Positions 1-15,247 of a stretch of 53,151 nt of DNA are shown here, one piece after another. The DNA comes from Candidatus Bathyarchaeota archaeon (lineage in GTDB: Archaea > Thermoproteota > Bathyarchaeia > TCS64), in the NCBI GenBank assembly GCA_018396865.1, contig JAGTRB010000003.1, forward strand, positions 72,575 through 125,725, given 5' to 3'. The position numbers and the translations under genes were made by a program. Within the stretch, counting starts at the first letter, position 1; every line of letters starts with the position of its first letter. The notes under the pieces were generated by a model. The model did not search any database, was not told the origin of the DNA, and worked only from the letters and a program-made list of their open reading frames with translations.

Positions 1-15
1 ATCTCACCTTATCTG

Positions 16-47
16 GGCTTTTTCTGAATTATATTCAGATATAAGCC
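16..47. repeat. Imperfect AT-rich hairpin at left edge
   Basis: The core TCTGAAT-TAT-ATTCAGA (23-39) is a perfect 7-bp dyad. It is extended by GGCTT at 16-20 and AAGCC at 43-47, giving an imperfect 32-bp hairpin. It may be a terminator of a gene outside the window or part of the dyad-rich control region to its right. No gene is seen in 1-303. Confidence 0.35.
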
Positions 48-69
48 TTCTCTGTCGAATTAAGGAAAT

Positions 70-159
70 ATTTCCCATCTATGGGAAATAAAAAGACCTT
101 TTTTCCCATTTCTAGGAAACATTCCCCAAAGGTGGAAAATGTTTCCCAAAAATGGGAAA
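70..159. repeat. Array of four TTTCCCA-type inverted repeats
   Basis: Four dyads occur in 90 bp. Positions 70-89 form a perfect 9-bp-arm palindrome (ATTTCCCAT, 2-nt spacer, ATGGGAAAT). Positions 102-119 are TTTCCCA...TAGGAAA with one mismatch. Positions 120-141 are an imperfect CATTCCCC...GGAAAATG. Positions 142-159 are TTTCCCA, 4-nt spacer, TGGGAAA, perfect. The dyad centres lie at about 79.5, 110.5, 130.5 and 150.5, so spacings are 31, 20 and 20 bp, close to whole helical turns. This suggests cooperative binding of a dimeric protein on one DNA face. The region has no gene. An origin-recognition-box role is an alternative, because the last dyad is followed by a short G run, but no cdc6 gene is visible here. 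Confidence 0.7.
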
Positions 160-303
160 AAGGGAATTGATGCAGTTGGCCATGAATCCCATCTCCTTCA
201 AGACTTGAATCCCAGAGTGTTAAGGTAGGGAGGGGTTTAATATGGAATAATGGGTCCCTAGCTTTAGGGAGGGATCAAATACCTGGAGTGGGGGGAGCAC
301 GGC

Positions 304-1209
304 TTGAGGGCTCGGAGGGGTTTCTCAGAGGCTGAGGATCGCCTATCCCAGCTGGAGGGGAAGGCGGATATGTTGAGGGGGAATATTGAGGGGTTGAAAG
401 GGGCTCTAGAATCCCTGAGGGCTGAGAGGGACCGTCTTAATGAGTCTGCCAGGCTTCTGCGCTCCGAGGCCGCGAGGTGGAGGGAGGAGAGGGATAAGGC
501 CAATCTGGAGGCCTCCGAGATCAGGAGCCGTTTGAAGCTCCACTACGAAGAGCTGAAGGAGAAGCGGAAAAGGCTTGAGGAGCTGGAAGCCATCCTAAGA
601 GAGAGGAGGAGAAGGACTCGTCCGAAGAGGGAGATAAGGGATAGGATTACACGCCTAGAATGGGAGGTCTCCACAACCCCAACCCTCGAGATGCTGCCCA
701 GGGAGAGAGAGCTTCTGGAGAAGGCGAGGGCTCTCTACGAGGAGCTCAGAGAATGCGAGGAGCTGGAGGAGCAGAGAAACATGGCATTAATGCTGCTATC
801 AGAGATAAAGGCTATCGAGATAAGAGTCAAAGAATATAAAGAAAAATTAGTCAAGTTAAGAGAAGTTAGTAAAGAAAGACATGAAAAGATGATCATAATA
901 TATAGGAAAGCAGAGGAGGAGAAGAAAAGGGCCGACAATATTCACTCAAAAATTCTTGAAAACATTTCGGAAATGAAAAAGTTTAGAGAGGAACTAAAAG
1001 AAGTATTAAAGGAGATAAATATGGTTAAAAAAGAAATTAAAGAGAAAAGCATGATTTTGGAAGCAGAGAGAAAAATTTTAATCGAAGAAAGAAAAAAAGA
1101 GATAGCTGAAAAAGCTAGAAGAAAATTGGAGGCTGGAGGAAAGATAAGCCTTGAAGAGTTAAAGATTATATTTGAAGAGAAAGAAGAAAAAGATGGGGAT
1201 GAAGGTTGA
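304..1209 (+). CDS. Coiled-coil protein, COG1340-like
   Basis: The 301-residue product is almost entirely charged heptad-like helix (Glu/Lys/Arg rich), predicted to be a long coiled coil with no membrane segment. The central RITRLEWEVSTTP stretch (about residues 116-128) and the C-terminal ARRKLEAGGKISLEEL match my memory of the archaeal COG1340 coiled-coil family, whose function is not established. The start is TTG at 304, preceded by GGGGGGAG at 290-297. The first ~180 codons are GC-rich like the neighbours, while the remainder is strongly AT-rich with lysine-rich AAA/GAA codons, an abrupt change inside one open frame. The gene stands alone; the dyad array upstream may control it. Confident that it is coding, not of its role. 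Confidence 0.75.
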   Translation: MRARRGFSEAEDRLSQLEGKADMLRGNIEGLKGALESLRAERDRLNESARLLRSEAARWREERDKANLEASEIRSRLKLHYEELKEKRKRLEELEAILRERRRRTRPKREIRDRITRLEWEVSTTPTLEMLPRERELLEKARALYEELRECEELEEQRNMALMLLSEIKAIEIRVKEYKEKLVKLREVSKERHEKMIIIYRKAEEEKKRADNIHSKILENISEMKKFREELKEVLKEINMVKKEIKEKSMILEAERKILIEERKKEIAEKARRKLEAGGKISLEELKIIFEEKEEKDGDEG

Positions 1210-1407
1210 AAAAGTAGCTGGACAATTAAATCTAAAACTATCTCAATTATTATCATTAAAAGAAATTCAATAATTTATATTAGAGCCATCCCATAAAGAG
1301 AGTACCTATGTAAAACATCTGGATATTATCTAGGGGAGAGATCTCTCCTAGGCGTTTGATTCGATAGAGCTATAATCGGGTTGAAGGATCTCTAATCGGG
1401 TGTTACC
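1210..1407. promoter_or_regulatory. Intergenic region with likely promoter for the M24 gene
   Basis: No ORF is present. GCTATAATCGGG (about 1368-1380) resembles a TATA element roughly 35-40 nt before the TTG start at 1408. The stretch TAATCGGGT is repeated near 1373 and 1393, which might be a control site. Evidence is weak. Confidence 0.25.
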
Positions 1408-2604
1408 TTGGTTAACCTGAAGATAAGCGTTGATGAGTATAGGAGGCGAATAAGAGGGGTTCGAACCGAGATGGAGAAGAGGGGCCTCGACGCCCTGCTT
1501 CTAGTCAGCGAGAAGGCGATATTCTACCTCTCTGGCTTCACCCACATAGCTACGGAGCGGCCTGCAGCCCTCCTAGTTCCCCCCGATGGAGACCTTGTCT
1601 TCATGGGGCCCCTCCTCGAGGCAGACCATTTAAGGCATCAGACCAAGCTGATAGGGGAGGTTAGAACCTACCTAGATTACCCCGGGGAGAGGCACCCGAT
1701 AGAGCTTTTCGCGGACTGGCTTAGGGATATAGGTTATGGTAGGGCGAGGATCGGCGCTGACAACCCAGCCGGCGCCACAGGAGCCTACGGGTACACGGGT
1801 CCTCCTTTGAACGAGGTCTTGAGCGACGCAACCTTCGTCAGGGCGGGCGACATAATCTGGGAGATGAGGCTAATCAAGTCAAGGGAGGAGGTTGAGCTTA
1901 TAAAAGAGAGCGCGAAGTGGGGGAACCTCGCCCATAGGCTCCTCCAAGAGTACACGGCCCCGGGGATGTGGGATGAGGAGGTCTCCCTCATGGCATCTCT
2001 CGAGGCCTCCTCGATAATGAAGAAGGCGCTGGGGCCGGATTATGAGAAGCTCCGGGGAGGGCCTCCGGCCTCCGCCGGATTCAGGGGGCAGGTTGGATGG
2101 AAGTCGGCCATGCCCCACTCCATAAGCACAGGCAGGACAATAAGGGAGGGGGATGTCCTAGTAACTGGTGCAGATGCGGATGTCGGGGGTTACCACAGCG
2201 AGCTTGAGAGGACCATGATCGTCGGGGAGCCAAGCCCGAAGCAGAGGAGGTACTTCGAGGTGATGCTCAGGGCCCAGGAGGCGGCCATGAAGGCGATGGG
2301 CCCGGGGGTCAGGTGCAGCGAGGTCGATAGGGCTGCCAGCCGCGTGATAGTTGACGCTGGGTATGGGGGGCTGATCAGGCATCATACCGGGCATGGAATA
2401 GGTTTGGAGGGGCATGAGCCTCCATGGCTGGATGTAGGGAACAACGTTGAGCTGAGGCCGGGGATGGTGGTTAGCTGCGAGCCTGGGATCTACGAGATCG
2501 GGTTCGGGGGCTTCCGCCACTCAGATACCGTGCTGATAACCGAGGATGGGGCTGAGGTCATAACCTACTATCCAAGGGAGATAGAGGAGCTTACCATAAG
2601 GTGA
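1408..2604 (+). CDS. M24 (aminopeptidase P/creatinase-like) family protein with altered metal site
   Basis: This 398-residue protein has the two-domain layout of M24 'pita-bread' enzymes: an N-terminal creatinase-like domain (about 1-150) and a C-terminal catalytic fold (about 160-398). Landmark motifs are GGYHSELERT, HHTGHGIGLEGHEPP, CEPGIYE and GFRHSDTVLITEDG. In metal-dependent members the ligands are two Asp, one His and two Glu. Here the first Asp position appears to be Gly, the second is Glu (SELERT instead of SDxTRT), and the final RIED Glu is Ser (RHSD). The His and one Glu remain. This pattern resembles metal-independent members such as creatinase, so Xaa-Pro peptidase activity should not be assumed. 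The start is TTG at 1408. It stands upstream of nreA in the same direction with its own promoter. Confidence 0.85.
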   Translation: MVNLKISVDEYRRRIRGVRTEMEKRGLDALLLVSEKAIFYLSGFTHIATERPAALLVPPDGDLVFMGPLLEADHLRHQTKLIGEVRTYLDYPGERHPIELFADWLRDIGYGRARIGADNPAGATGAYGYTGPPLNEVLSDATFVRAGDIIWEMRLIKSREEVELIKESAKWGNLAHRLLQEYTAPGMWDEEVSLMASLEASSIMKKALGPDYEKLRGGPPASAGFRGQVGWKSAMPHSISTGRTIREGDVLVTGADADVGGYHSELERTMIVGEPSPKQRRYFEVMLRAQEAAMKAMGPGVRCSEVDRAASRVIVDAGYGGLIRHHTGHGIGLEGHEPPWLDVGNNVELRPGMVVSCEPGIYEIGFGGFRHSDTVLITEDGAEVITYYPREIEELTIR

Positions 2605-2668
2605 TACTTCCCCGAGATTCCACAACATATTAATCTCCTTTTTTGCTTATCATATATCAGGTACTGGA

Positions 2669-4018
2669 TTGCCGAAGCGTATCTCCAAACGCCTCAAGGT
2701 TTTGAACAATGTATGGCTGAGGGAGCTCGCCTTATCAGATCCAAAACTGGGCATAGACCTAGACTACACTCCCGAGCAGCTGAGGCTTCAGGCTCCCCCT
2801 GGGAGCCCTTGCATCGTCTGTAAGGGTTCTAGGCTCCTCTGCGGAAAGGCGAGCTGCCCGGTTATAGCCCGCCTCACCTCTCAGCTTAAGATATGGAGGA
2901 GCATAGGGGGGTTGACCATAGAGGGCTCCTCCCCCCCAAGCGTCTTTGTCGGTCGCTTCGGCTATCCGTATGTCTACATAGGCCCCATGGCTCCTCCTTA
3001 CCTAGGTGATACATCCATCCTAGATGCTCCGGAATACTGGTTTGGAAAGAGCATCGAGGAGATAATAGGGTTCAGGACCCAGCTGGTTAGGGGTATGTAT
3101 AGGGCACATGTCAGAAGCCCAACCAAGCCTGACAGGGTGCTGGAGAAGACCAGGGAGGTGGCCTTAGCTGAGAGCTATGTGGAGACGGAGATGAGGCTTA
3201 GAAGGCCTCCCCAGAGCAGATTCTACCTAGATGACGATGTCCAGCCCCTTGGGCCCTCCGCACCCTTGGAAGGGATAGAGGTAGGAGGACTGAGGTGGGA
3301 TAGATATATGGAGAAGGCCCATTACGATACGGACCTTAAAGCCTCTGAGGCCATAATGGTGCTTTACAGCTCCAATGTGCCCTTGACTAGGATCCAGAGG
3401 GCCTTCAGCCTTGGATGCTTCGGTATAGAGAAGAACAGGAGGCTTGTCCCTACACGTTGGAGCATAACGGCAATAGATGACATGGTCTCCAAGGAGCTTG
3501 CCAGGAGGGTAAGGGATTACCCCCTCCTTAACCAGTTTGAGGTCTATGAGTCGAACTATCTTGGAAACAGGTTCATAGTCATCCTGATGCCCGACGCTTG
3601 GAGCTATGAGGCCTACGAGGCGTGGTATCCCCAGACCCTGTGGAACCCATCCACCGACCAAGTGGCTATAGTGACTGACTGGGAGGGCCACCTGGGGAGG
3701 AGCAGCTACGCCTCCATGGGGGGATGCTACTATGCGGGTAGGCTTGCGATCCTAGAGCACCTGATGAGGGTTAGAAGGCAGGCTAGGGCCTTCATCCTTA
3801 GGGAGGCCTACCCAGACTATATCCTCCCCGTCGGGGTCTGGCAGGTGAGGGAGAATGTGAGGAACGCGGTGAGGCAGCCTCCAAAGAGCTTCAACTCCCT
3901 ACAAGAAGCTCTGAGGCATGCTATGGGGAGGCTGAGCATACCCCTAGAGCACTGGTTGAGCTCTGGCTTCCTCTTGAGGAATACCCTGAAACAGAGGAAG
4001 CTAACAGAGTTCCTATGA
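2669..4018 (+). CDS. nreA: Archaeal DNA-repair protein NreA
   Basis: The 449-residue protein matches the archaeal NreA family (formerly DUF650/DUF651), linked in Haloferax to DNA-damage repair together with PCNA. An N-terminal zinc-ribbon-like Cys set is visible (C48, C51, C58, C63; CIVCKGSRLLCGKASC). The long central part contains family stretches such as SVFVGRFGYPYVYIGP and ANWSTD-like WNPSTDQVAIVTDWEG. The C-terminus ends in KQRKLTEFL, a PCNA-interacting (PIP-type) peptide. The start is TTG at 2669, with AT-rich CTTATCATATATC about 25 nt upstream as a possible TATA region. EndoQ at 10155 ends with nearly the same peptide. Identification is strong; biochemical activity of the family is not certain. 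Confidence 0.9.
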   Translation: MPKRISKRLKVLNNVWLRELALSDPKLGIDLDYTPEQLRLQAPPGSPCIVCKGSRLLCGKASCPVIARLTSQLKIWRSIGGLTIEGSSPPSVFVGRFGYPYVYIGPMAPPYLGDTSILDAPEYWFGKSIEEIIGFRTQLVRGMYRAHVRSPTKPDRVLEKTREVALAESYVETEMRLRRPPQSRFYLDDDVQPLGPSAPLEGIEVGGLRWDRYMEKAHYDTDLKASEAIMVLYSSNVPLTRIQRAFSLGCFGIEKNRRLVPTRWSITAIDDMVSKELARRVRDYPLLNQFEVYESNYLGNRFIVILMPDAWSYEAYEAWYPQTLWNPSTDQVAIVTDWEGHLGRSSYASMGGCYYAGRLAILEHLMRVRRQARAFILREAYPDYILPVGVWQVRENVRNAVRQPPKSFNSLQEALRHAMGRLSIPLEHWLSSGFLLRNTLKQRKLTEFL

Positions 4019-4020
4019 AG

Positions 4021-4027
4021 ATTTAAA
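4021..4027 (+). promoter_or_regulatory. TATA box for pheST
   Basis: ATTTAAA lies with its centre about 30 nt before the TTG at 4054 and 33 nt before the GTG at 4057. That spacing predicts a leaderless or nearly leaderless mRNA for pheS. Confidence 0.45.
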
Positions 4028-4053
4028 GGGGCTATAGAACTCCTTAATGGTGC

Positions 4054-5583
4054 TTGGTGAGGCCCTTGGATCCTAAGCTGATGGCTTCAAGCCTACATGA
4101 GAATGAGAGGAAGATAATGAGGGTTCTCAATGAAAGGAAGGCCGCCACCTTCGAGGAGTTGAGCCTCGCCACCGATCTAAACAGGGATGCGGTGGAGAAG
4201 GCCTGCGCCTGGGCTGAGTCTAAGGGGATAATAGAGGTGGAGAAGAGGAGCCGGAGGTTCTTCCAGTTATCTGAGGAGGGGGCCCTATACGCGGAGGAGG
4301 GGCTTCCTGAGAAGAGGCTGATAAGGATGGCGATGGAGGGCTTAACGGAGATTGAAGCCCTTAGGGAGGCCTTCCCCCTCCTTAACATAGCCCTGATATG
4401 GGTTAGGAGGAATGGCTGGGCCGAAGTAAAGGATGGGAGGATCGAGCTGACGAAAGAAGGGGTCGAGGCCTCAACCGAGGAGACTGTGGATGAGAGGATA
4501 ATAAAGAGGCTGAGTTTGAGCCCGACTGGAGAGGAGGAGCTAGAGGATCTGATGGATAGAGTCAGCCTCCTCCTAAGGAGGGGCCTGATCAGGAGTTCTG
4601 AGAGGGTTGAGAAGGTCGCGAGGCTGACGGAGTTGGGTATAACCTTAATCCCCTTCCTAGAGGAGGTCGAGGTGATCGCTCAGCTTACCCCTGAACATCT
4701 TCGCACCCGCTCCTGGACCAAGGCAGCCTTCCAGAGATATGACGTGAAGCTCCCCGCCCCGAGGATCTACCCTGGCAAGAGGCACTTCGTCAGCCAAGTC
4801 ATTGATTACATACGCCGATTCTGGGTTGAGCTGGGGTTCAGGGAGATGAAGGGTCCCATAGTGGAGCTCGCCTTCTGGAACTTCGACGCCCTCTTCCAAC
4901 CCCAAGACCATCCTGCAAGGGACCTAGCTGACACCTTCTACATGAAGACTCCGAGGAGCGGGAGGCTCCCAGACCCGGAGCTCGTGAGGAGGGTCAAGGA
5001 GACCCATGAGAATGGATGGACCACCGGCTCCACGGGGTGGGGCTACAGTTGGGATCCTGAGCTTGCCGGGAGATGCTGCCTCAGAACCCACACCACCAGC
5101 CTGTCAGCCCTGGCCATATCGAGGCTGAGGGAGGAGGATCTGCCGGCGAAGTTCTTCTCGGTAGGTAGGGTATTCAGGAATGAGACCATAGACTGGAACC
5201 ATCTGATAGAGTTCTACCAGACCGACGGGATAGTGATTGGGGATGGGGTCACCTTCCGCCACATGCTTGGGTACCTCAAGGAGTACCTTGAGAGGATGGG
5301 GGTGGAGAGGTTCAGGTTCAGGCCTGGATACTTCCCCTACACAGAGATGTCCCTCGAGGCCGAGGTCTGGGTTGAGGAGAAGCAGTCCTGGATGGAGCTC
5401 TTCGGAGCCGGTATGTTCAGACCAGAGGTTGTCAAGCCCCTCTTCGGAAGGGAGGTCCCAGTCCTGGCTTGGGGTCCCGGATTCGACAGGATCGTTATGA
5501 GGCATTACGGGATAAACGATCTGAGAAGGCTATACAGCAACGATCTAGGGCAGCTCAGAGAGGCGAAGATCTGGCTGAGGTGA
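4054..5583 (+). CDS. pheS: Phenylalanyl-tRNA synthetase alpha subunit
   Basis: PheS charges tRNA-Phe as the catalytic subunit of a cytoplasmic alpha2beta2 class II synthetase. The 509 residues fit the long archaeal/eukaryotic form: an N-terminal winged-helix region for tRNA contact (about 1-200), then the class II core. Core signatures are RCCLRTHTTSLSALA, the GRVFRNETIDWNHLIEFYQ motif 2 stretch, and the C-terminal motif 3 region GAGMFRPEV...WGPGFDRI. The start is TTG at 4054; GTG at 4057 is an equal alternative. pheT begins 5 bp after the stop, so the two form an operon. Confidence 0.96.
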   Translation: MVRPLDPKLMASSLHENERKIMRVLNERKAATFEELSLATDLNRDAVEKACAWAESKGIIEVEKRSRRFFQLSEEGALYAEEGLPEKRLIRMAMEGLTEIEALREAFPLLNIALIWVRRNGWAEVKDGRIELTKEGVEASTEETVDERIIKRLSLSPTGEEELEDLMDRVSLLLRRGLIRSSERVEKVARLTELGITLIPFLEEVEVIAQLTPEHLRTRSWTKAAFQRYDVKLPAPRIYPGKRHFVSQVIDYIRRFWVELGFREMKGPIVELAFWNFDALFQPQDHPARDLADTFYMKTPRSGRLPDPELVRRVKETHENGWTTGSTGWGYSWDPELAGRCCLRTHTTSLSALAISRLREEDLPAKFFSVGRVFRNETIDWNHLIEFYQTDGIVIGDGVTFRHMLGYLKEYLERMGVERFRFRPGYFPYTEMSLEAEVWVEEKQSWMELFGAGMFRPEVVKPLFGREVPVLAWGPGFDRIVMRHYGINDLRRLYSNDLGQLREAKIWLR

Positions 5584-5588
5584 TGTGA

Positions 5589-7259
5589 ATGCCCGTAATA
5601 GAGGTGAAACTGGCCGACTTCCTGGAGATGCTAGGAAGAGAAGTTAAGCTGGAGGAGGTAAGGGAGACCCTACCCATGATGGGGGTCTCCTGGGAGGGGG
5701 AGACTGATGATGGCTTCATGATAGAGGTCTTCCCGAACAGGCCTGACATGCTATCGGTTGAGGGCCTAGCCAGGGCCTATGCATCCTTCATAGGGTTGAG
5801 GAGAGGGCTCAGAACCTACGAGGCCAAGCCCTCAGATTACACCGTCATTGTAGATAGGAGGGTTGAGGCCGTTAGGCCATACTTCGCCTCAGCGGTGCTC
5901 AAGGGTATAGAGTTCGACGACGCCCTCATAAGGTCGATAATCCAGATGCAGGAGAAGCTCCACATCACCCATGGGAGGAAGAGGAGGAAGGTCTCAATAG
6001 GCCTCCACAACCTCGAACCTATAAGGTTTCCTGTCACCTATACGACCCGCCCGAAGGACTTCAGGTTCAGGCCCCTGGGCGAGATCCGGGTGATGAGCCT
6101 CGAGGAGATCCTCACGAGGACATCAAAGGGGTTGGAGTATGGCTGGATCCTGGAGGGGAAGCACGAGTACCCTATCCTCATAGACTCTAAGGGTATGGTC
6201 CTATCCATGCCACCCATAATCAACTCCGAGCATACGCGCATAGATGAGGCCACGGAGAGCATCTTCGTCGACATCACCTCCACAGACTGGAGGGCCATGA
6301 ACGAGGTGTTGAACATCATAGTCACAACCTTCGCAGATCATGGCGCCGAGATCTACACCGTCTCCAACAGGTATCATGACAGGGTGGTGGAGACCCCCAT
6401 CCTCTCACCCAGGGAGATGGAGCTGGATCCCGATTACGTCAACAAGCTCCTAGGCCTCAAGCTGAGGGATGGTGAGATCGCCTCATACCTGGAGTCGATG
6501 GGCTACGGAGTTGAGTTGGGGAACTCGTTGAGGGTTCTTGTGCCATGCTACAGGACGGATGTGATGCATCCAATAGACCTGGTCGAGGATGTGGCTATAG
6601 CCTACGGTTATGAGAGGTTTATACCGGAGATACCATCGATCCCGTCTCCTGCCGGCGAAGATACCTTAGAGGTCTTCTGTAGGCGTCTCAGGGATTTCAT
6701 GGTTGGCTTCGGCCTCCTGGAGACCATGACATTCATGATGACGAATAGGAGAAACCTCTTCGAGAGGATGTGCATGCCTCCCGAGCCTGTCGCTGAGACC
6801 GAGAACCCGAAGACGGAGGAGTACAACATCCTGAGGAATAGGCTACTACCGAGCCTCATGGAGGTCCTCAGCACGAATAAACATAACCCCTACCCCCAGA
6901 ACATCTTCGAGGTTGGAGAGGTCATCCTACTCGATGAGGGGGAGGATACAGGGGCTAGGACAGCTAAGAGGCTCGCAGTAGCCCTATGCCACTCAAAGGC
7001 CAACTTCTCGGAGATAAAGGCCCTCATGGAGTCTATCCTCAGCAACCTAGGCCTCCACGAGGTTGAGCTCGAGCCCTCAAGCCTACCATACTTCATCGAG
7101 GGGAGAGGGGTTGAAGGGAAGATAAGGGGCAAGCTCGTCTGCTGGGCTGGTGAGATAAGGCCCGAGGTGCTTGAGAATTGGGGCTTGGAGATGCCTGTCG
7201 CGGGTCTAGAGATGGATGTCGATATCGTCTATGAGTTCGCTCTCAAGATGAGAGGATGA
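5589..7259 (+). CDS. pheT: Phenylalanyl-tRNA synthetase beta subunit (archaeal type)
   Basis: PheT is the beta subunit partner of PheS. At 556 residues it is the short archaeal/eukaryotic form, lacking the bacterial N-terminal tRNA-binding extension and C-terminal anticodon-binding domain. Visible parts are the B1-like N-terminus (VEVFPNRPDMLSVEGLARA), the B3/B4 editing region (about 80-260, with KVSIGLHN and IINSEHTRI), the B5 domain (about 280-350, CYRTDVMHPIDLVEDVAIAYGY), and the catalytic-like B6/B7 module (LLETMTFMMTNRRNLFERM...NPKTEEYNILRNRLLPSLMEVL). ATG at 5589 follows TGATGTGA from the pheS stop, so translation is probably coupled. Confidence 0.96.
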   Translation: MPVIEVKLADFLEMLGREVKLEEVRETLPMMGVSWEGETDDGFMIEVFPNRPDMLSVEGLARAYASFIGLRRGLRTYEAKPSDYTVIVDRRVEAVRPYFASAVLKGIEFDDALIRSIIQMQEKLHITHGRKRRKVSIGLHNLEPIRFPVTYTTRPKDFRFRPLGEIRVMSLEEILTRTSKGLEYGWILEGKHEYPILIDSKGMVLSMPPIINSEHTRIDEATESIFVDITSTDWRAMNEVLNIIVTTFADHGAEIYTVSNRYHDRVVETPILSPREMELDPDYVNKLLGLKLRDGEIASYLESMGYGVELGNSLRVLVPCYRTDVMHPIDLVEDVAIAYGYERFIPEIPSIPSPAGEDTLEVFCRRLRDFMVGFGLLETMTFMMTNRRNLFERMCMPPEPVAETENPKTEEYNILRNRLLPSLMEVLSTNKHNPYPQNIFEVGEVILLDEGEDTGARTAKRLAVALCHSKANFSEIKALMESILSNLGLHEVELEPSSLPYFIEGRGVEGKIRGKLVCWAGEIRPEVLENWGLEMPVAGLEMDVDIVYEFALKMRG

Positions 7260-7290
7260 CCCCCCACACCATGTTCTCCCCTGGAGGGGC

Positions 7291-7298
7291 TATTAAAA
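7291..7298 (+). promoter_or_regulatory. TATA-like element for the DMT transporter
   Basis: TATTAAAA lies about 45 nt upstream of the ATG at 7339, in the 79-bp gap after pheT. It would give a short leader of roughly 20 nt. Confidence 0.35.
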
Positions 7299-7338
7299 CC
7301 GGTGTTTATCCCATCCTTTCGGGTAGGAGGCCTATCGT

Positions 7339-8208
7339 ATGAGCCGAGGGCCCAAGTTGCCTCCCAAGGCCGTCCTCCTCGTCAGCATAGCCGCAGTCTC
7401 CACGGCCTCTATCCTCATAAGGATGAGTTCGGCTCACCCCCTAGCGATAGCAGCCTACCGGATGATAATATCCACCCTCATCCTAGCCCCCTTCCTCATA
7501 CTCTCCGGTGAGCCCCATGGGTTGAGAGATCTGGATCGCAACGTGCTCTTGAAGTTGATAGGCGCCGGATTTTTCCTAGCCCTCCACTTCGCCACCTGGA
7601 TCAGCAGCCTAAGCCTCACCTCCGTCACCAGCTCTGTCATCTTCGTCCACCTCGACCCTGTATTTGTCGCCTTCATATCCCACTTCATCCTAGGGGAGAG
7701 AATAACACGGCGGATGCTCCTCGGCATCATAACAGCCGTCTCAGGGGCGTCCCTCATAGCCCTAGAAGATATAGGGCTAGGGGAGGGTAATCTACAGGGC
7801 GACCTATTGTCCCTTATAGGGGCCCTCATGCTCGGCCTCTACATCCTAAGTGGGAGGAGGTTGAGGCAGTCTTTAGACCTGCTCACCTACGTTGTGCCGG
7901 TCTACGGCACAGCCGCCACAATATTAACTGCAGGCTGCCTCATAGCAGGGGTTCCATTCACCTACCAATCAAGAGAATACATCCTCTTCACAGCCATAGC
8001 CCTAGTTCCCATGATCTTCGGCCACACCCTATACAACTGGGCGCTTAGATACCTCAAAGCCTCAATAGTCTCAACAAGCCTCCTGGGCGAGCCCGTGGGG
8101 GCTTCAATACTAGCATTCCTCCTACTCGGCGAGAAGCCCACACCAGTAATGCTCCTCGGGGCCCTCATAACACTGATAGGAATCTACATCTGCATTAGAA
8201 GTAGCTGA
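7339..8208 (+). CDS. EamA/DMT-superfamily transporter
   Basis: The 289-residue protein has about ten hydrophobic helices arranged as two EamA repeats (about 8-140 and 150-286). This is the drug/metabolite transporter layout, usually an exporter of amino acids or other small metabolites. Repeat signatures include LHFATWISSLSLTSVTSSVIFVHLDPVFVAFISHFILGE in repeat 1 (read by region) and WALRYLKASIVSTSLLGEPVGASILAFLLLGE in repeat 2. The N-terminus (MSRGPKLPPKAVLL) is cytoplasmic and basic. Substrate cannot be told from sequence. The gene is the last intact one before the decay zone starting at about 8210. Confidence 0.88.
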   Translation: MSRGPKLPPKAVLLVSIAAVSTASILIRMSSAHPLAIAAYRMIISTLILAPFLILSGEPHGLRDLDRNVLLKLIGAGFFLALHFATWISSLSLTSVTSSVIFVHLDPVFVAFISHFILGERITRRMLLGIITAVSGASLIALEDIGLGEGNLQGDLLSLIGALMLGLYILSGRRLRQSLDLLTYVVPVYGTAATILTAGCLIAGVPFTYQSREYILFTAIALVPMIFGHTLYNWALRYLKASIVSTSLLGEPVGASILAFLLLGEKPTPVMLLGALITLIGIYICIRSS

Positions 8209-8273
8209 AAGATTAAAAATCATGAAGAAATTTTAAATGGGAGAACACAAGTTTTCTCTATAATAAATAGTAA

Positions 8274-8524
8274 GTGAATTTTAATGAACAAATTGATGGG
8301 ATGATTAGGGATCGGCTCTCTAAAACAGTCCATGAGGAATGGAGATATTTAAAGCGACACCCCTACCATCAGATCGAGTTCATCCATCACTATGCACTTC
8401 TTTGGGAGATATCTACCGAAATCAGGGCTAGTATTGGACGCCGGTGGAGGCCCTGAGTAGTATACTATTGAGCTTGCTAAGCTTGAATATGATGTAGTTT
8501 TGTTGGATCTTGTTCCTGTTATGC
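8274..8524 (+). pseudogene. Broken copy of a SAM-dependent methyltransferase gene
   Basis: The opening reads MNFNEQIDGMIRDRLSKTVHEEWRYLKRHPYHQIEF, close to the start of the intact methyltransferase at 14043. After about codon 36 the frame shifts (near 8380-8395). The next frame continues with YLPKSGLVLDAGGGPE, then an in-frame TAG at 8458-8460, then YTIELAKLEYDVVLLDLVPVM. Homology to the intact gene ends near 8524. The N-terminal half including SAM motif I is thus present with one frameshift and one stop, and the rest is missing. It lies in a region holding other gene fragments. Confidence 0.85.
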
Positions 8525-8568
8525 ATTTTTTATTTCACTTCCCAGCATCCTTCTCTGCAGGTGTGCAG

Positions 8569-8610
8569 AGATGGGCATCTAGTTATCCTATAATGCCCTT
8601 CCCAAAAGAG
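8569..8610 (+). pseudogene. Fragment resembling the presenilin-type protease gene
   Basis: These 42 nt encode RWASSYPIMPFPKE, matching RWASSYPIMPFPRE (residues 34-47) of the presenilin-like protease encoded at 33316-34134 on the other strand. About 37 of 42 nucleotides agree and most differences are synonymous. Flanking sequence on both sides shows no further match. It looks like a remnant of a paralogue, or a short shared segment moved into the decay zone. Confidence 0.6.
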
Positions 8611-8714
8611 ATTTTCATAAAATGGTCAATGAAAACAACGTGCAGGTGTCTCCACTCGCTATTAGGAGATTTAGGATGCTTTCCCTCTCTTACAAAATGT
8701 TTTGAGTATACGGT

Positions 8715-9167
8715 TTACCCGAGATATATTGAGTTCATTCCCTCTTTGCATGCGATTTCATGTAATTTCTTATCCCCCGTGTAGAAGGCATCAGAGTTAA
8801 CTATTTTGGCGCTAGCTATCTGTATAGCATCTGCTATGTATATGTGGTGCTTCTCGATGTATAGGCATGATTGCCTTATGATCATATAATTTAAAGGTGT
8901 TATTCTACATATCCCTAGCTTGATTATTCTATTCAACTCGCCTAGGAATAGAGACTTTAACTTCCTATAGGTCTGAGGATCTCCAATTCTATATGATGTC
9001 CTATCGAATACGCTGATAACTTCTCCGATGTTGAGTATTGTGAAAGTCAAAATAGCATCACCATTGTAAGCTTTGAGATAGAGACTCCTTATGATCTCCG
9101 ATCCAGACTCCTTAAGATACCTCTTAGCCATAGCGCTACTGTCTAGATAACTTATCTGCCCTCTCAT
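8715..9167 (-). CDS. vapC: VapC-like PIN-domain toxin
   Basis: This is a 150-residue PIN-domain protein, the usual length for VapC RNases that cut tRNA or other RNA. The acidic Mg2+-binding positions are visible: D9 in YLDSSAMAKRYLKE, a Glu in LNIGEVIS (about 49), an Asp in IYIADAIQIASAK, and an Asp in FYTGDKKL. The start codon (9167) lies inside the end of the antitoxin gene (32-bp overlap), so the two are translationally coupled. Codon use is more AT-rich than the housekeeping genes nearby, consistent with mobile toxin-antitoxin cassettes. Confidence 0.85.
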   Translation of the reverse strand: MRGQISYLDSSAMAKRYLKESGSEIIRSLYLKAYNGDAILTFTILNIGEVISVFDRTSYRIGDPQTYRKLKSLFLGELNRIIKLGICRITPLNYMIIRQSCLYIEKHHIYIADAIQIASAKIVNSDAFYTGDKKLHEIACKEGMNSIYLG

Positions 9168-9411
9168 CCCTCATCTCCCTAATAATCTTAGCGGAATCAG
9201 TCCCCAGGTCTAATGGTTCGAAATCTATCGACTCATAATACCCCACCAGATCTTCATCCATCAAATCCCCCAGGGACTCCTCGGGGAGGCTCTCCCTTAT
9301 CAACCGTTCAAGATAATCTGAGATATCCACACCCTCCCTCGCTGCCCTCTCCTTAATCCTACGCCACAGCCTACCATCTATATTCAAGCTCGTCTTAACC
9401 CTTCCACTCAT
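9136..9411 (-). CDS. vapB: VapB-like ribbon-helix-helix antitoxin
   Basis: The 91-residue protein has an N-terminal ribbon-helix-helix DNA-binding segment (VKTSLNIDGRLWRRIKERAAREGVDISDYLERLIRE, by region 5-39) and an acidic C-terminal tail likely to wrap the toxin. It precedes and overlaps the PIN toxin gene. ATG at 9411 is followed upstream by a 15-bp direct repeat (9429-9459), a good candidate for its own operator. Family assignment of the pair is confident; the specific RNA target of the toxin is not known. Confidence 0.82.
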   Translation of the reverse strand: MSGRVKTSLNIDGRLWRRIKERAAREGVDISDYLERLIRESLPEESLGDLMDEDLVGYYESIDFEPLDLGTDSAKIIREMRDERADKLSRQ

Positions 9412-9428
9412 GCCTACATACCTTTTTT

Positions 9429-9459
9429 AGTATATACCTATTTAAGTATATACCTATTT
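9429..9459. promoter_or_regulatory. Direct-repeat operator/promoter of vapBC
   Basis: AGTATATACCTATTT occurs exactly twice, at 9429-9443 and 9445-9459, with a 16-bp period. On the minus strand this is AAATAGGTATATACT, containing TATA-like cores 18-48 nt before the vapB start. Ribbon-helix-helix antitoxins commonly bind such repeats, so autorepression by VapB-VapC is the inferred role. Confidence 0.6.
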
Positions 9460-9637
9460 CTGTCTGTAAACTAGGAGGACCTAATATAAATAGAATCAAA
9501 TATATTTTCTTGGCATGGTTATTGTTTCTAATCATGCCAATCATTAAATCTAATAGAATATTGAGCGAAGGGATGATCATGGAGGAGATTTTACGATATT
9601 TTATACTAATAATTTTGAATAAAACTCTATCGTAATA

Positions 9638-9942
9638 TTGGTTATTTCACCAGCCATTTTAGACCTACCCCCTCCCTCATCAAGAAAAGCGGTGAGGGTT
9701 CTGGAGGAGATCCGTAGGAGAATTGGCGAGATACCTACAGAGGAGCTTATAAGGTGGATAAGGGAAGAGAGGCGGAGAGGCCTAGAGTGGTCATAGACGC
9801 CAGCGTAGCAGCAAAGTGGGTCATCCCGGGGGAGCCATGTGAGGCTGAGGCAAGAGGCCTCATGGAGAAGATAGCCTCGGGAGAGGTGAAGGCATACGCG
9901 CCTCCCCTCTTATCTTTATTGGGATTTTCTTATTGTAACTGA
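9638..9942 (+). pseudogene. Degraded second vapBC pair
   Basis: Frame one (9638-9796) ends with RKAVRVLEEIRRRIGEIPTEELIRWIREERRR, typical of a VapB C-terminus, but has no proper N-terminal DNA-binding part and no ATG start. A second frame overlaps its stop from a GTG at 9787 and reads VVIDASVAAKWVIPGEP...KIASGEVKAYAPPLL, a clear VapC PIN-domain N-terminus with the first catalytic Asp. The PIN frame then leaves homology and stops at 9942, so about two thirds of the toxin, including the other acidic residues, is missing. The stop/GTG overlap preserves the original operon layout. Confidence 0.72.
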
Positions 9943-10154
9943 GGGCGATAAGGATAGCCCTAGGCTACTATTTGGCCTTCCCTATCGGGATGAGGCCATT
10001 CGGAGCCTGGCTCGCACTATCCCTAAGCAACATAGTGGGAGGGGGCGATCGCGATAACCTGGATAAGGTATGGAGATTGGACGAAGGCCATGGTGGAGGA
10101 GGAGACCGAAGGATGATGCCACATGGGAGACGAGCTCTGAGATTTGAATACGGA
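9943..10154. other. Intergenic remnant with no supported gene
   Basis: A 62-codon frame at 9972-10160 shows no recognisable family and overlaps the end of the EndoQ gene by 6 bp. The GC-rich, codon-like sequence suggests degraded coding DNA continuing from the broken VapC, but no homologue is recognised. Confidence 0.3.
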
Positions 10155-11498
10155 TCATAGGAATTCCTTTAAAGACCTCTGCTTGGCTCCCCCCTTCTCC
10201 TTCTCCACCTCAACCCTCTCAGCCTCCTCCACCTCCCCACCCGCTCCAGCCTCTCTAGCTACACCTTCACCCCTCTCCGGGAAGATTATGATCTGACCGT
10301 AGACGCCGTCATAGCCTGGGATAACCCTGACCCTTCCATCCCTGACGCGTATTATGGCCTCAGCTACAGCGGGGTCAACAACCTTCACAAGCTCATCGAA
10401 TCCAGCATCTATCAAAACTGAGTACTCATTCCCGAAGTGTGAGATGAGGAGGTTGTAGATGCTCCAGACCCTCTGCGAACTAGGAGAACTAGCACCTACG
10501 ACGGCTGAGATGACCTCGGAGAGAGGGAGGAGATGTATGTAGCCCGGTGAGCCGGGAGGCCTGAAGCCGGGTGGTCGGTCGGCGAGCTCCTCAACACGCT
10601 GCTCAACACCCTTCGTCAGCCTCCTATGACAGACAGGACACCTATCCCCAAGCCTTATCGCCTCCTCAGGTGGGAGTGAGACTCCGCATTCCCTGTGGCC
10701 TGTCCAGTGATACTTGCCGTATGCCGGGTCGGTCTCGATGGTGAACCTCAGGATATCTGGATCCCTCCTCCTAATCGAGTCCAGCAGCCTCCAGTAGCTT
10801 AGTTGTTCGAGCTCGAATACGTTCGCCTCCCTCCCGATCCTCCAAGGCCAGCTCGAATGGGAGTCGCTGTTAGAGAGCAAGACGAATCTGTCGAGGGAGC
10901 TTAGACGCCAGTTCATCCTCGGATCCGAGGATAAACCCGTCTCAAGGGCGTACACATATTTAGTCATATCCTGATAGCAGTCCTCCATCCTGTCGAAGCC
11001 GCTGAAGGCCCCGAAGACGCTGAACCAGGGAGTCCAGGCATGCGCGGGGAAAACCATATTATCATCTGAGACCTCCATAACCTCCTCGACGAGATGCGCC
11101 GCCGAGATGTCTAGGGTCGGTCTACCATCTGCCTCGAGGTCCCCATACCTGGAGAACCGATCGTTTAACTGCTCGGCCACCTCTATGCCGGGCGTCAATA
11201 TTACGTGGTGAACCTTCTTCCTCTCCCCCTTCCAGGTGAAGACCGTCGAGACCTCCCCGGTGATCATGAAATAGACCTCGGAGAGGGAGGGGTTCACAGG
11301 CCTGTACAGGCCCATCTCGGGAGAGTAGGTGAGCCTCTCCTTAATCTCCTGGAGCCACCTAGGATGGGTGAAATCGCCCGTCCCGACGAGAGATAATCCC
11401 TTAATCTTAGCGAAACGGGCTATTTCATGTATGTTCATGTTTGCGCTTGTAGCCCGACTAAACCTACTATGGATATGTAGATCAGCTATAACCCTCAA
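10155..11498 (-). CDS. endoQ: Endonuclease Q (PHP-domain DNA repair nuclease)
   Basis: The 447-residue protein starts with a PHP phosphoesterase domain (ADLHIHSRFSRATSANM, GTGDFTHP, HAWTPWFS, NSDSHS: the metal-binding His/Asp set). It follows with a zinc-finger-like CGVSLPPEEA...CPVCHRRL segment (Cys near 284, 302 and 305) and a helix-hairpin-like region, then a low-complexity linker. The C-terminus is KQRSLKEFL, a PCNA-interacting peptide. This is the layout of archaeal EndoQ, which nicks DNA 5' of deaminated bases (uracil, hypoxanthine) and is helped by PCNA. ATG at 11498 gives the HxH motif immediately at the N-terminus as expected. Confidence 0.9.
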   Translation of the reverse strand: MRVIADLHIHSRFSRATSANMNIHEIARFAKIKGLSLVGTGDFTHPRWLQEIKERLTYSPEMGLYRPVNPSLSEVYFMITGEVSTVFTWKGERKKVHHVILTPGIEVAEQLNDRFSRYGDLEADGRPTLDISAAHLVEEVMEVSDDNMVFPAHAWTPWFSVFGAFSGFDRMEDCYQDMTKYVYALETGLSSDPRMNWRLSSLDRFVLLSNSDSHSSWPWRIGREANVFELEQLSYWRLLDSIRRRDPDILRFTIETDPAYGKYHWTGHRECGVSLPPEEAIRLGDRCPVCHRRLTKGVEQRVEELADRPPGFRPPGSPGYIHLLPLSEVISAVVGASSPSSQRVWSIYNLLISHFGNEYSVLIDAGFDELVKVVDPAVAEAIIRVRDGRVRVIPGYDGVYGQIIIFPERGEGVAREAGAGGEVEEAERVEVEKEKGGAKQRSLKEFL

Positions 11499-11652
11499 AC
11501 CCTAAGCCTACCATACCTCAGTCAAAATAACTTATTTACATTTTCTTAGGAGAGCCTTATTCCCATCAAGAAAAATTATAATCTGGATAGAGATGAACTC
11601 AAAAATGGTATCTTGCAAATATTATGATTAATGTGATCAGAGAAAGGGTTAA

Positions 11653-12843
11653 GTGTCTTTAAGCTGGATTGATCTGTGGGCGTTGATGGGATCCGATCCC
11701 CTGAGCATGGCCGAGGAGTTCATGACCGATTTCGCTTATCAGACGGGGATTCTTGGTAGTGGGAGGCCGAAGAGATACCTCTGGACCGATGCCTTCGCGG
11801 TCTGCAATTTCCTTGAGCTCTACCGTAAGAGGGGGGATGAAAGGTACAGGCAGCTTGCACTAAAAACCGTCGATCAGGTCCACCTCATCCTCGGAAGGCA
11901 TAGGGAGGACGACTCCAGAAGGGGCTGGCTGAGCGGGCTGAGCGATGAGGAGGGCCTCAGGCACCCAACAATAGGGGGCTTGAGGATAGGTAAGAGGCTC
12001 CCAGAGAGGAGGCCCGGTGAACCCCTAGATGATGTTTTGGAATGGGAGAGGGACGGCCAATACTACCACTATCTCACCAGGTGGATGCATGCATTGAATA
12101 GGGTCGGAGGGGAGCTGGGAGACCTAAGATACAACCTGTGGGCCATCGAGCTCGCTAAGAGGACGCATGAAGCCTTCGTCTACAGGGCCCCATATGGTGG
12201 GAGGCGCATCTACTGGAAGATGAGCATAGACCTATCCCGACCCCTGATCACCTCGATGGGCCAACACGACCCATTAGACGGCTTCGTCGTCTACAACGAG
12301 ATCCAAGCCTCTGCTCCAGAGGAGGAGGGCTGGCCAGACCTCACCAAAGAGATCGGGGAGCTTGAGGAGATCTGCGGGGAGATGGATTGGACAACGGACG
12401 ACCCACTTGGCATAGGAGGCCTCCTCTGGAACGCCTACCTCCTAGCCAAGCTCATCTCAAGCGGCCGCATAGAACGTGTGGATCTTCTACTCGAGGTTTT
12501 AAGCTCCTCCCTACTAGGCCTAGAGTCATACTCAGAATCCGGAGCCCTCAGGCTTCCAGCTAGCAGAAGGCTTGCCTTTAGAGAGATGGGGTTAACCATC
12601 GGACTCAAGGCTGCAGAGAGGCTTCAAAGGCTGGCCTCATCAGACCCGAGGCTCTCAAGCGACGAAGAGCTACTCTCAATGGTTAAGGGTTTAACCTACC
12701 ACACCAGGCTGTCCGATGAGATCGAGAGATTCTGGCTTAAACATATAAATAGGGAGAACGAACTCTGGAGGGAGCATAAGGAGATCAACATGGTTATGCT
12801 CGCCACAAGCCTAGCGCCAGGCAGCTTCCTAGGAGAAGACTGA
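11653..12843 (+). CDS. Uncharacterised protein, possible (alpha/alpha) barrel fold
   Basis: The 396-residue soluble protein has no signal peptide. It contains repeated helical segments with aromatic and acidic patches (YLWTDAFAVCNFLELYRKRG, GQYYHYLTRWMHALNRVGG, LRYNLWAIELAKRTHEAFV, DPLGIGGLLWNAYLLAKL). Their spacing resembles six-hairpin glycosidases or epimerases. I recall similar proteins of unknown function in methanogens and other archaea. A role on sugars is only an inference, from the fold impression and from the amino-sugar island 2.4 kb downstream. The start is GTG at 11653 after GAAAGGGTT. It is monocistronic. Confidence 0.7.
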   Translation: MSLSWIDLWALMGSDPLSMAEEFMTDFAYQTGILGSGRPKRYLWTDAFAVCNFLELYRKRGDERYRQLALKTVDQVHLILGRHREDDSRRGWLSGLSDEEGLRHPTIGGLRIGKRLPERRPGEPLDDVLEWERDGQYYHYLTRWMHALNRVGGELGDLRYNLWAIELAKRTHEAFVYRAPYGGRRIYWKMSIDLSRPLITSMGQHDPLDGFVVYNEIQASAPEEEGWPDLTKEIGELEEICGEMDWTTDDPLGIGGLLWNAYLLAKLISSGRIERVDLLLEVLSSSLLGLESYSESGALRLPASRRLAFREMGLTIGLKAAERLQRLASSDPRLSSDEELLSMVKGLTYHTRLSDEIERFWLKHINRENELWREHKEINMVMLATSLAPGSFLGED

Positions 12844-13215
12844 AACCGAAATAAAGTAGAAAAGTAGAGAATCTATAAATCTGATGTGCTTTAATCCATC
12901 TAGTGATTTTTATCTTTAAATGCATACAGATATAGAGCATTCCCTTGCTCCGTTCGAGATGATTCATTATAGGGCTGAGGGCTCCCCTTGAACTGGGAGG
13001 TCTAGACAGGTAGGGGTTGAGGTTGAAGCTGATGAAGCCGCCTCCAAGAGAACTGAAAATCGGATTTAGAAGAGATTATAGGGATTAAAAAGATAAGAAA
13101 AGGGAAAAACATAGGCGAAATTGCCTCTATTACCTATTTAACCCTTATTTAAATAGACATTTTCCTGTAAAAGAAGGCTCGAGTCAAAATTTCATGATTA
13201 AGCCGAGAAGGCGAA
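12844..13215. other. Intergenic region upstream of the GYD gene
   Basis: About 370 bp without a plausible ORF, AT-rich near its end. Nothing specific is recognised before the palindrome at 13216-13246. Confidence 0.4.
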
Positions 13216-13246
13216 GATATAAATTTTTGAAATCAAAATTTATATC
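13216..13246. promoter_or_regulatory. 31-bp palindrome overlapping the GYD gene promoter
   Basis: GATATAAATTTT (13216-13227) and AAAATTTATATC (13235-13246) are perfect 12-bp inverted arms around a 7-nt spacer TGAAATC. The left arm contains the likely TATA box (ATATAAATT), with the ATG at 13259 about 37 nt from its centre. An operator that would block TBP binding is the simplest reading. Confidence 0.65.
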
Positions 13247-13258
13247 GGAGCTGAGATT

Positions 13259-13549
13259 ATGCCAATATATATTCTTCTTTCAAAGCTCACGGCGGAGGGA
13301 AGAAAAACAGTAAAGGAAAAACCTGAAAGGATAAAAGAGGTAAATAAGGAGATAGAATCTTGGGGAGCTAAGGTCATTCATCAATACGCAGTCCTCGGCC
13401 CATACGACTTCGTTAACGTCGTTGAGGCACCAGATAATCAGGCCATCGCCCGCGTTTCGGTGGAGCTTGGATCCCGCGGAACTGTCGAGATAATGAGCAT
13501 GCCCGCCATACCGATAGATGATTTCATATCGATGCTGAAGAAGAAATAA
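13259..13549 (+). CDS. GYD-domain protein
   Basis: This is a 96-residue alpha/beta protein of the GYD family (PF08734-type), small ferredoxin-like-fold proteins widespread in archaea and bacteria with no fixed function. The family signature appears as VLGPYDFVNVVEAPD (GxYDxV variant) at about residues 46-60, and the C-terminal VEIMSMPAIPIDDF is typical. The start is ATG at 13259, and GGAGCTGA upstream may serve as a ribosome site. It stands alone behind a strong palindrome, so it is probably regulated. It may act as a ligand sensor or dimer partner; this is not established. Confidence 0.85.
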   Translation: MPIYILLSKLTAEGRKTVKEKPERIKEVNKEIESWGAKVIHQYAVLGPYDFVNVVEAPDNQAIARVSVELGSRGTVEIMSMPAIPIDDFISMLKKK

Positions 13550-13999
13550 ACCTGAGAACTCCATCCCCCTTTTTCTGCCACAAAGGAAGACTGATGGATT
13601 CATCCCATCGGCCTCCATCCTCAAGGCTTTAGATGTGATGGCTGTCTCCAAAACGAGGGCTACAACACCCTCTCCCGGCCTCATCCCCCCTCATACCCTA
13701 AGGCTTAAGATCCTTTATTAGCTCACAGAGAGACCAGCGATACACCGGGCTGGAGGAGGAGCTTTGCAGAGGCATCCATAACCTCAGCGGCCTAAATAGG
13801 TCTCCATAAAGGCCTCAAGCTTTGATCTTCGGGTTTCACAACTCGGGGAGGGAGCATATCCCAGATATGAATCTAAAACTCATTCTCCCTATGAGCCAAC
13901 CAGTTAATCGAACCCTTTCAGCTATCACCATCTCACGCTATCCCTATATTTACTCGCAACTTTTATTCACAATTCATGATCAAAATATAAGAGAGAAAA
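13550..13999. other. Intergenic region, possible gene remnants
   Basis: About 450 bp. A T run at 13568-13573 may terminate the GYD transcript. The minus strand between about 13600 and 13690 reads PGEGVVALVLETAITSKALR, which looks protein-like, but its frame runs through the GYD gene and no family is recognised. No gene is called. Confidence 0.3.
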
Positions 14000-14008
14000 T
14001 TTATATAA
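14000..14008 (+). promoter_or_regulatory. TATA box for methyltransferase gene
   Basis: TTTATATAA is followed 23 nt later by GGAGGGG (14031-14037), a strong ribosome site 5 nt before the ATG at 14043. The layout predicts a leader of about 10-15 nt. Confidence 0.55.
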
Positions 14009-14042
14009 CCTTTCCAATATTTATGCATAAGGAGGGGTGTTC

Positions 14043-14876
14043 ATGAGTTTTAATGAACAGATTGATGACATGATCAGAGATTGGTTTTCAAAAACAGCTC
14101 GTAGAGAGTGGAGGCGTCTAGTGCAAGATCCCTATCATCAAATAGAGTTCATCGTCACAAACCACTTCCTAGAAAAATATCTTCCAAGGTCAGGATTAGT
14201 TCTAGATGCTGGTGGAGGCCCAGGGAGGTATACCATCGAATTGGCGAAGCATGGCTATGACATGGTTCTGCTGGATCTGGTTCCTGAGATGCTCGAACTT
14301 GCGGAGAGGAGGACTAGGAGGATGGGAGTCTCTAGAAGGGTGAAGCGGTTTGTCCAGGGTTCGATAGAGGACCTTTCAATCTTCGCCGACGGGTCCTTTG
14401 ATGCGGTTCTATGCTTGGGAGGGCCTCTCTGCCATCTTTTAAATGTTGAGAGGAGGGAGAAGGCCGCTTCAGAGCTCGTTAGGGTGGCTAAAAGGGGGGC
14501 ACCGATCTTCGTTTCAGTCATCAGCAGAATTGGAGTTCTGAAAACCATACTCATTAGAATTCAGGATCATATTAAGTACGTGAATCATCACTGGGAGAAG
14601 GGAGACTATATACCCGGTCTATATGGTGAGGGCTTCACAGCGGCACACTGGTTTCTGCCGGAAGAGCTGCAAGATATATTCGAAAGGCAAGGAGCGGAGA
14701 TAGTGGAGATGGCAGGCTTAGAGGGGCTCTCCTCACATCATAGAAGAGAAACAAACAGGCTTCATAGGGACCCAGAAAAATGGAGGATCTGGATTGAAAT
14801 GATCCTGAAAACTTGCACACACCCATCGATTATTGGAAGTTCAGAACACTTTTTACTGGTATGCAGAAGACCTTAA
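14043..14876 (+). CDS. Class I SAM-dependent methyltransferase
   Basis: The 277-residue protein has a methyltransferase domain with motif I LVLDAGGGPGRYTIELAKHG (about residues 49-68), acidic loop LLDLVPEM, and motif IV-like FDAVLCLGGPLCHLL. Homologues are typical small-molecule methyltransferases; the substrate is unknown. I place the start at ATG 14043, not the upstream GTG at 14037, because GGAGGGG ends at 14037 and would overlap that GTG. A degraded copy of the 5' half lies at 8274-8524, about 5.8 kb upstream. Confidence 0.85.
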   Translation: MSFNEQIDDMIRDWFSKTARREWRRLVQDPYHQIEFIVTNHFLEKYLPRSGLVLDAGGGPGRYTIELAKHGYDMVLLDLVPEMLELAERRTRRMGVSRRVKRFVQGSIEDLSIFADGSFDAVLCLGGPLCHLLNVERREKAASELVRVAKRGAPIFVSVISRIGVLKTILIRIQDHIKYVNHHWEKGDYIPGLYGEGFTAAHWFLPEELQDIFERQGAEIVEMAGLEGLSSHHRRETNRLHRDPEKWRIWIEMILKTCTHPSIIGSSEHFLLVCRRP

Positions 14877-14951
14877 ACATCTCAAGTTTATCAAATGTTA
14901 CTTGGCGAGAGAGCCTATTTATCTGAAGTCTCTTCGCTTGGTTAAAAGTAA

Positions 14952-15226: not shown

Positions 15227-15247
15227 TATGGAAAGCTTCAATCTGGC

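Follow-up and report, generated by a model that had tools for sequence, protein, structure and literature searches.

A regularly spaced array of TTTCCCA dyads as candidate operator of an adjacent Sso10a-family winged-helix gene in Bathyarchaeota

The repeats at the left end of the window (the whole stretch of DNA analysed here, 53,151 nucleotides from C3:72575 onwards) are, we believe, in all likelihood the operator array of the adjacent gene, which encodes a winged-helix protein of the Sso10a family; in some relatives the same protein would also run a small regulon of microproteins. The initial annotation had taken these inverted repeats for a cooperative binding platform, either an operator array or, should an Orc1/Cdc6 gene lie to the left, origin-type repeats. 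There is good support for the operator reading: within its genome the array has no counterpart, relatives conserve it, and it is locked in register to the promoter of a gene for a DNA-binding protein, with which it co-occurs; the promoter as a whole is shared with further genes. These findings point to an undescribed gene-control circuit. Through them the Sso10a family, known from non-specific chromatin proteins, gains a precise candidate DNA target together with a small set of target genes, and the promoter model also uncovers genes for micropeptides of 34-38 aa.

The array and its neighbouring genes

The array sits between divergent genes, and its elements and flanks are as follows (window coordinates unless marked otherwise).

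71-88: dyad 1, TTTCCCATCTATGGGAAA, perfect; its centre at -35.5 relative to the winged-helix gene's TATA
102-119: dyad 2, TTTCCCATTTCTAGGAAA, one mismatch (13/14 positions); slot -66.5
122-139: dyad 3, TTCCCCAAAGGTGGAAAA, two mismatches (12/14 positions); slot -86.5
142-159: dyad 4, TTTCCCAAAAATGGGAAA, perfect; slot -106.5
51-68, minus strand: degenerate promoter-proximal slot (-15.5), made up of a TTTCC half-site and, abutting the BRE on its upstream side, a conserved block of TTCG..AGA type
35-54, minus strand: BRE/TATA element of the winged-helix gene, CAGAGAAGGCTTATATCTGA on that strand; TATA at about 38-45
1-7, minus strand: first codons of the HTH_45/Sso10a-family winged-helix gene (106 aa); the remainder lies beyond the left edge of the window, the whole gene being L004:17262-17582
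304-1209, plus strand: divergent neighbour, a 301-aa coiled-coil protein with weak DUF7121 and SMC-like coiled-coil matches below the cut-offs; context only

Both the sequence and a repeat finder give four 18-bp dyads of the form TTTCCCA-N4-TGGGAAA, set 31, 20 and 20 bp apart from start to start, confirming both the centre spacing and the span (71-159) described initially. The additional copy at 51-68, which the initial annotation did not contain, is mainly a left half and lies one step nearer to the winged-helix gene than dyad 1. The counts are well above expectation: exact TTTCCCA-N0-10-TGGGAAA occurs twice in the window against 0.01 expected, and at up to 2 mismatches there are four dyads against 0.24 expected, every one of them in the array, a number that none of 100 shuffles reached. 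Scattering of the motif over the genome, named at the outset as grounds for doubt, is rejected. In the 1.83-Mb genome (43 contigs) the exact dyad is restricted to this array, four of the seven sites at up to 2 mismatches are array members, and at up to 3 mismatches the 66 sites fall below the 112 of a reversed control; there is therefore no background of scattered sites. We also rejected a structured RNA, since Rfam at gathering scores gave no match in window positions 1-20000 and 20000-53151, and a tRNA search of L004 and of the window came back empty.

Extension of the contig to the left, as the initial annotation had advised, uncovers on the minus strand not an Orc1/Cdc6 gene but the 106-aa winged-helix gene. 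Its product belongs to the Sso10a family: it scores 72 bits (cut-off 60) against NCBIfam NF053610 'Sso10a family chromatin protein' and 67.5 bits (cut-off 25.5) against Pfam HTH_45 (PF14947), its sequence matches Sso10a structures at E 1.2e-5, and its predicted fold resembles 1r7j and 4hw0. The AlphaFold2 monomer is a winged helix (mean pLDDT 80.4) with a short C-terminal helix (residues 64-80), whose best Foldseek match is 1r7j (Sso10a; E 1.3e-6, TM 0.63/0.74). It does not have the Lrp HTH and C-terminal RAM domain of Lrp family regulators: a Pfam scan returned only HTH_45 and one weak match below the cut-off. The winged-helix gene is followed at short distance by a family-2 glycosyltransferase gene and then by a 63-aa peptide with a hydrophobic stretch (L004:15968-16159), and we infer that the winged helix, the glycosyltransferase and the small membrane peptide form one operon in this genome.

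Farther to the right the window holds an archaeal Nre gene (2669-4018, plus strand; PF04894/PF04895) and a PIN-domain gene (8715-9167, minus strand), the latter overlapped by a small upstream gene (9136-9411, minus strand) that resembles a VapB-type antitoxin by appearance only, with no Pfam match.

Association with the winged-helix gene across Bathyarchaeota

Homologous loci were collected by scanning named genomes with an alignment of 17 homologues. Among the best 80 of 207 loci, 32 were taken as Bathyarchaeota (L070 included), and the window and a second copy in the congener G001 bring the set to 34. A palindromic matrix was trained on the Bathyarchaeota upstream regions with no constraint on spacing, and a site was called at a score of at least 6 bits within 300 bp upstream; the upstream site count leaves out L092, which is too short. 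At least one such site precedes 32 of the 34 Bathyarchaeota genes, and the matrix finds 81 sites in 10,031 bp of upstream sequence versus 49 in 160,121 bp elsewhere in the same loci. In three loci that are weak or empty within 300 bp (L085, L087, L116) the promoter lies further up, before small ORFs, and L110 is the sole one of the 34 without an array promoter. The array is thus kept in relatives, its absence from which the initial annotation had held would count against it.

The congener G001 carries two tandem copies of the winged-helix gene with three dyads upstream of each, and the coiled-coil gene adjoins just one of these arrays; a relative of the 63-aa peptide directly follows the second copy. 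Within Bathyarchaeota, then, the array goes with the winged-helix gene and not with its right-hand coiled-coil neighbour. It is not a feature of every HTH_45 gene, a possibility we rejected because dyads are rare upstream of homologues outside Bathyarchaeota (14 matrix sites in 13,977 bp; 15 regions inspected by eye). A scan of repeat offsets gives peaks at 30 and 20 in Bathyarchaeota and an 18-bp peak in Methanosarcinales. In Methanolobus psychrotolerans (L135), at roughly 90-120 bp before the HTH_45 gene, a 14-bp motif (ATTAATGTGGGG..) is repeated three times head to tail; its sequence is unrelated to that of the dyads. In G027 (L048:6161-6996) and G051 (L054:4202-5060) two divergent HTH_45-type genes have the dyads between them; the second gene is of a different subtype (PTRIMY motif), which suggests paralogues under shared control.

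Promoter register and the 10-bp lattice

Across the Bathyarchaeota loci the BRE/TATA consensus is TAGAGAAGCCTTATATCTGA, and counted from this element the dyad centres most commonly stand at -35.5, -65.5, -85.5 and about -105.5, less commonly at -15.5, -45.5, -55.5, -75.5, -95.5, -125.5 and -155.5; a few (e.g. -161.5, -188.5) are off the lattice or at its edge. The window dyads are at -35.5, -66.5, -86.5 and -106.5 from TATA. No dyad overlaps TATA, and all sites lie upstream of the BRE. Conservation peaks in the segment spanning the first dyad to TATA (TTcC..TTTCG.TAGA...), the half-site at slot -15.5 included, and in two relatives of one genus (L071, L076) this slot holds a scoring dyad.

Distances between sites cluster at 19-22, 29-31, 39-41, 49-52 and 60-61 bp. 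The best lattice period is 10.02 bp (bootstrap over clades 9.8-10.12), with R 0.80 for 18 clade representatives and 47 sites, related loci not being independent, and with R falling to 0.46 at 10.5. None of 2000 random placements equalled the observed R, and among column-permuted matrices run on the same DNA one of 300 equalled it (mean 0.41). The lattice table leaves out L117, which has no usable anchor; the de-duplicated spacing test drops 8 near-duplicate loci, and spacing results were computed both with and without them. Relaxed B-DNA has 10.5 bp per turn. The spacings had been described initially as about 3, 2 and 2 helical turns: the regular grid stands, but its period is 10.0 and not 10.5 bp, so the turns are only approximate. 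A 10.0-bp step would suit a contiguous row of protein or overwound DNA, and the difference suggests that the spacing is dictated by a row of protein and not by relaxed DNA. Gain and loss of whole 20- or 30-bp units by recombination may, on the other hand, keep such spacing without selection.

Exact dyads are also found by pattern in four distant members of the class (G034, G050, G054, G058), not beside the winged-helix gene, and we read these as chance because their number fits the reversed-control rate (6 genomes). In G008 a repeat-rich surface-type protein is preceded by a dyad (L052:2409) that misses the lattice, lying at about -47.5 when placed by hand, and was likewise treated as chance.

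The register bears as well on the second reading offered initially, namely replication-origin repeats bound by Orc1/Cdc6 in an ORB-like manner, to which we attach next to no probability. AT-rich repeats between divergent genes would be in keeping with an origin, and the main point in its favour is a replication gene pair 12.6-15 kb to the left of the array on the same contig, which is not evidence of an origin at the array itself:

L004:2468-3019, plus strand: GINS-type gene (Sld5 domain, narrowly over the cut-off), with MCM directly behind it
L004:3016-5082, plus strand: MCM

The dyads, however, are in register with a TATA box, relatives carry up to several array promoters at unrelated loci, and GC skew taken in 1-kb steps over 20 kb has no clear switch, although this is a weak test. 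Nor did the anticipated Orc1/Cdc6 gene turn up to the left: the only Orc1/Cdc6 match of the genome is on another contig (G000:C7:33517-33732), and the 3.2 kb around it (L003) contain no dyad of at least 11/14.

A composite promoter shared with micropeptide genes

From 23 sequences we built a profile of the composite promoter that covers 98 positions and uses sequence alone, and ran it against 61 relatives and against 256 genomes of the class. At E<=1e-5 the latter search returned 66 rows, of which 5, overlapping or next to an array already counted, were dropped, leaving 61 distinct places in 31 of the 256 genomes; 14 non-Bathyarchaeal genomes searched with the profile gave no hit below E=0.02. 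Some relatives have several composite promoters per genome, before different genes and in register with TATA. Within 900 bp behind the 61 places we find the winged-helix gene in 36 cases, the winged-helix gene plus a peptide gene in 3, a peptide gene alone in 11 and other or unread genes in 11, so that 39 places precede a winged-helix gene and 14 precede genes for 34-38-aa peptides. Among the 61 relatives a winged-helix match (E<=1e-9) is present in 21/21 promoter-bearing genomes versus 7/40 others (Fisher p 1e-10), an association that is partly circular because the model was trained on winged-helix promoters, the peptide promoters being its independent part. Seven of the 28 genomes with such a match have no promoter hit.

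These counts speak to the possibility that some other, unlinked regulator has the dyads as its operator and would control the winged-helix gene and the peptide genes together. Eleven of the 61 array promoters do stand before peptide genes with no adjoining winged-helix gene, and linkage alone is no proof of binding. The winged-helix gene is nevertheless by far the commonest target (39/61) and is itself of DNA-binding type, and with its presence in 21 of 21 promoter-bearing relatives an autoregulator is the simplest account; we therefore consider an unlinked regulator unlikely.

A separate search with the peptide family (34-38 aa, e.g. MKRRVLGYLLSAGSVYLTMSFLTKVFLNLINNLTLSVI) yielded 14 strong hits (E<=2e-13), spread over three genera and 7 of the 256 genomes. 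All 14 are preceded by the promoter and by one dyad or more, and three are in one apparent operon with the winged helix. Differences among nine peptide genes of 114 nt fall on codon positions 1, 2 and 3 at 33, 16 and 51%, and the two genes for one identical pair of peptides differ at four third positions only; such a third-position bias is the signature of real genes. The tested members match no Pfam or NCBIfam model, and their hydrophobicity suggests one membrane segment. The common stand-alone peptide is absent from the window's own genome. A weak match in G006:C242 has neither promoter nor array and was set aside.

Other short reading frames adjoin the winged-helix gene: hydrophobic peptides of 33-34 aa after it in G028, G030 and G031, an ORF of 36-39 aa together with one of 31 aa before it in G003 and G018, and ORFs of 29-32 aa before it in G041, G094, G114, G225 and G226. 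Behind the array promoters of G003/G018 (L194, about 180 bp after the promoter element; L231) we also noted a second type of hydrophobic peptide, of 31 aa, with the pattern M.A(E/D)S(V/I)..(V/I)IG. In several families (G114, G094, G210, G213; L221, L223, L227, L228) the winged-helix gene is followed by a membrane-type protein of 93-110 aa that carries a conserved (S/L)DY.TT...FYETH motif, and in G020/G013 (L198, L199) a 117-aa protein of unknown family lies about 37 bp after a short form of the promoter.

One might see in this arrangement an autoregulated pair resembling toxin and antitoxin, the winged helix being antitoxin and repressor and the hydrophobic micropeptide the toxin, considering the small autoregulator-like gene, the multi-site operator and the hydrophobic peptides of 25-39 aa that adjoin it in some operons. 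We hold this to be very unlikely: 11 of the 14 peptide genes stand alone under the same promoter, gene order varies, the window's genome is without the common peptide, and no site lies over TATA, contrary to expectation for a simple repressor.

Proposed mode of regulation

Our preferred reading remains an operator array bound by the adjacent protein. From the arrangement of the sequence we infer that the winged-helix protein is the binder of the dyads, and cooperative binding at the array is plausible. Each 18-bp dyad would be the site of one winged-helix dimer, and three or four neighbouring dimers, held to a fixed grid of 10 bp with BRE/TATA as its reference point, would make up a short nucleoprotein row on one face of the DNA upstream of this element. 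The protein would thereby control its own operon of winged helix, glycosyltransferase and small membrane peptide, and in several relatives the stand-alone genes for 34-38-aa peptides as well. The effect might be activation, turning perhaps to repression when the protein level is high. Activation appears the likelier sign from site geometry, because all sites are upstream of the BRE and none lies over TATA; by analogy with the archaeal Lrp regulators compared below, we favour activation or dual control slightly over simple repression.

If one takes the model further, an Sso10a-type chromatin protein would have turned into a sequence-specific regulator that forms a short filament on 10.0-bp slots and has a dedicated regulon of membrane micropeptides, and the peptide could feed back, making this a membrane-sensing or peptide circuit. 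We put this forward tentatively and regard it as rather doubtful.

A site of centromere type needs to be considered too: the winged helix would assemble first at the dyads and spread from them, in the manner of AspA on plasmid pNOB8, and would serve segregation or chromatin instead of transcription. The weak Foldseek matches include AspA and the pNOB8 centromere-binding protein; AspA is reported to bind a palindromic site ahead of its own gene and to cover 200 bp by spreading (PMC5120986), and Sso10a2 is described as forming filaments (PMC4941522). Against these likenesses, a scan of five genes neighbouring the winged helix gave no ParA/ParB, relatives have several arrays per genome, and the fixed distance to TATA and the reuse at peptide genes indicate promoter control. 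We see only a very slim chance that the array is such a site.

Comparison with known systems

The general logic of the proposed circuit is known from Ss-LrpB of Sulfolobus solfataricus; the protein family, the lattice and the microprotein targets are new as far as we found. A search of the open-access literature for a described operator in Bathyarchaeota, an uncultured archaeal group, found none, and an Sso10a-type regulator with such a lattice and microprotein targets was not found in that literature. Ss-LrpB, according to published reports (PMC4046817, PMC2995911), has three sites in its own control region, and its autoregulation passes from positive to negative with concentration. The present system is like it in that the regulator gene's control region contains several palindromes at regular intervals, in the two- or three-turn spacing, in the small number of further target genes and, as proposed here, in one dimer per site. 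Ss-LrpB, as described there, is an Lrp-like protein with a 15-bp site (TTGCAAAATTTGCAA) and metabolic targets, whereas here we have an Sso10a-family protein, an 18-bp TTTCCCA dyad, a 10.0-bp lattice across many genera and microprotein co-targets. For archaeal Lrp activators a review describes a site whose position, just upstream of the BRE, is constrained, and centres that lie two or three turns apart (PMC2995911); in the placing of the site the present promoters resemble them.

Two further small archaeal winged-helix proteins invite comparison. AspA of pNOB8 has as its target a palindrome ahead of its own gene, from which it spreads along the DNA, but works in segregation with ParB and ParA (PMC5120986); here there are no such adjoining genes, and the sites keep register with a promoter. 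The pSSVx protein Stf76 has two sites in its own promoter and, unlike the protein considered here, belongs to a plasmid-virus.

The closest relatives are Sso10a1 and Sso10a2 (PDB 1r7j, 1xsx, 4hw0), which share the NCBIfam model and Pfam HTH_45 and give the best fold match; the family dimerises through a long antiparallel coiled coil, and in the predicted monomer of the 106-aa protein the C-terminal helix (residues 64-80) is short. In the published account, the characterised Sso10a proteins bound DNA 'without apparent sequence specificity', bending, bridging or coating it, and Sso10a2 forms stiff filaments (PMC4941522), whereas here a conserved, specific candidate operator and a small regulon accompany the gene.
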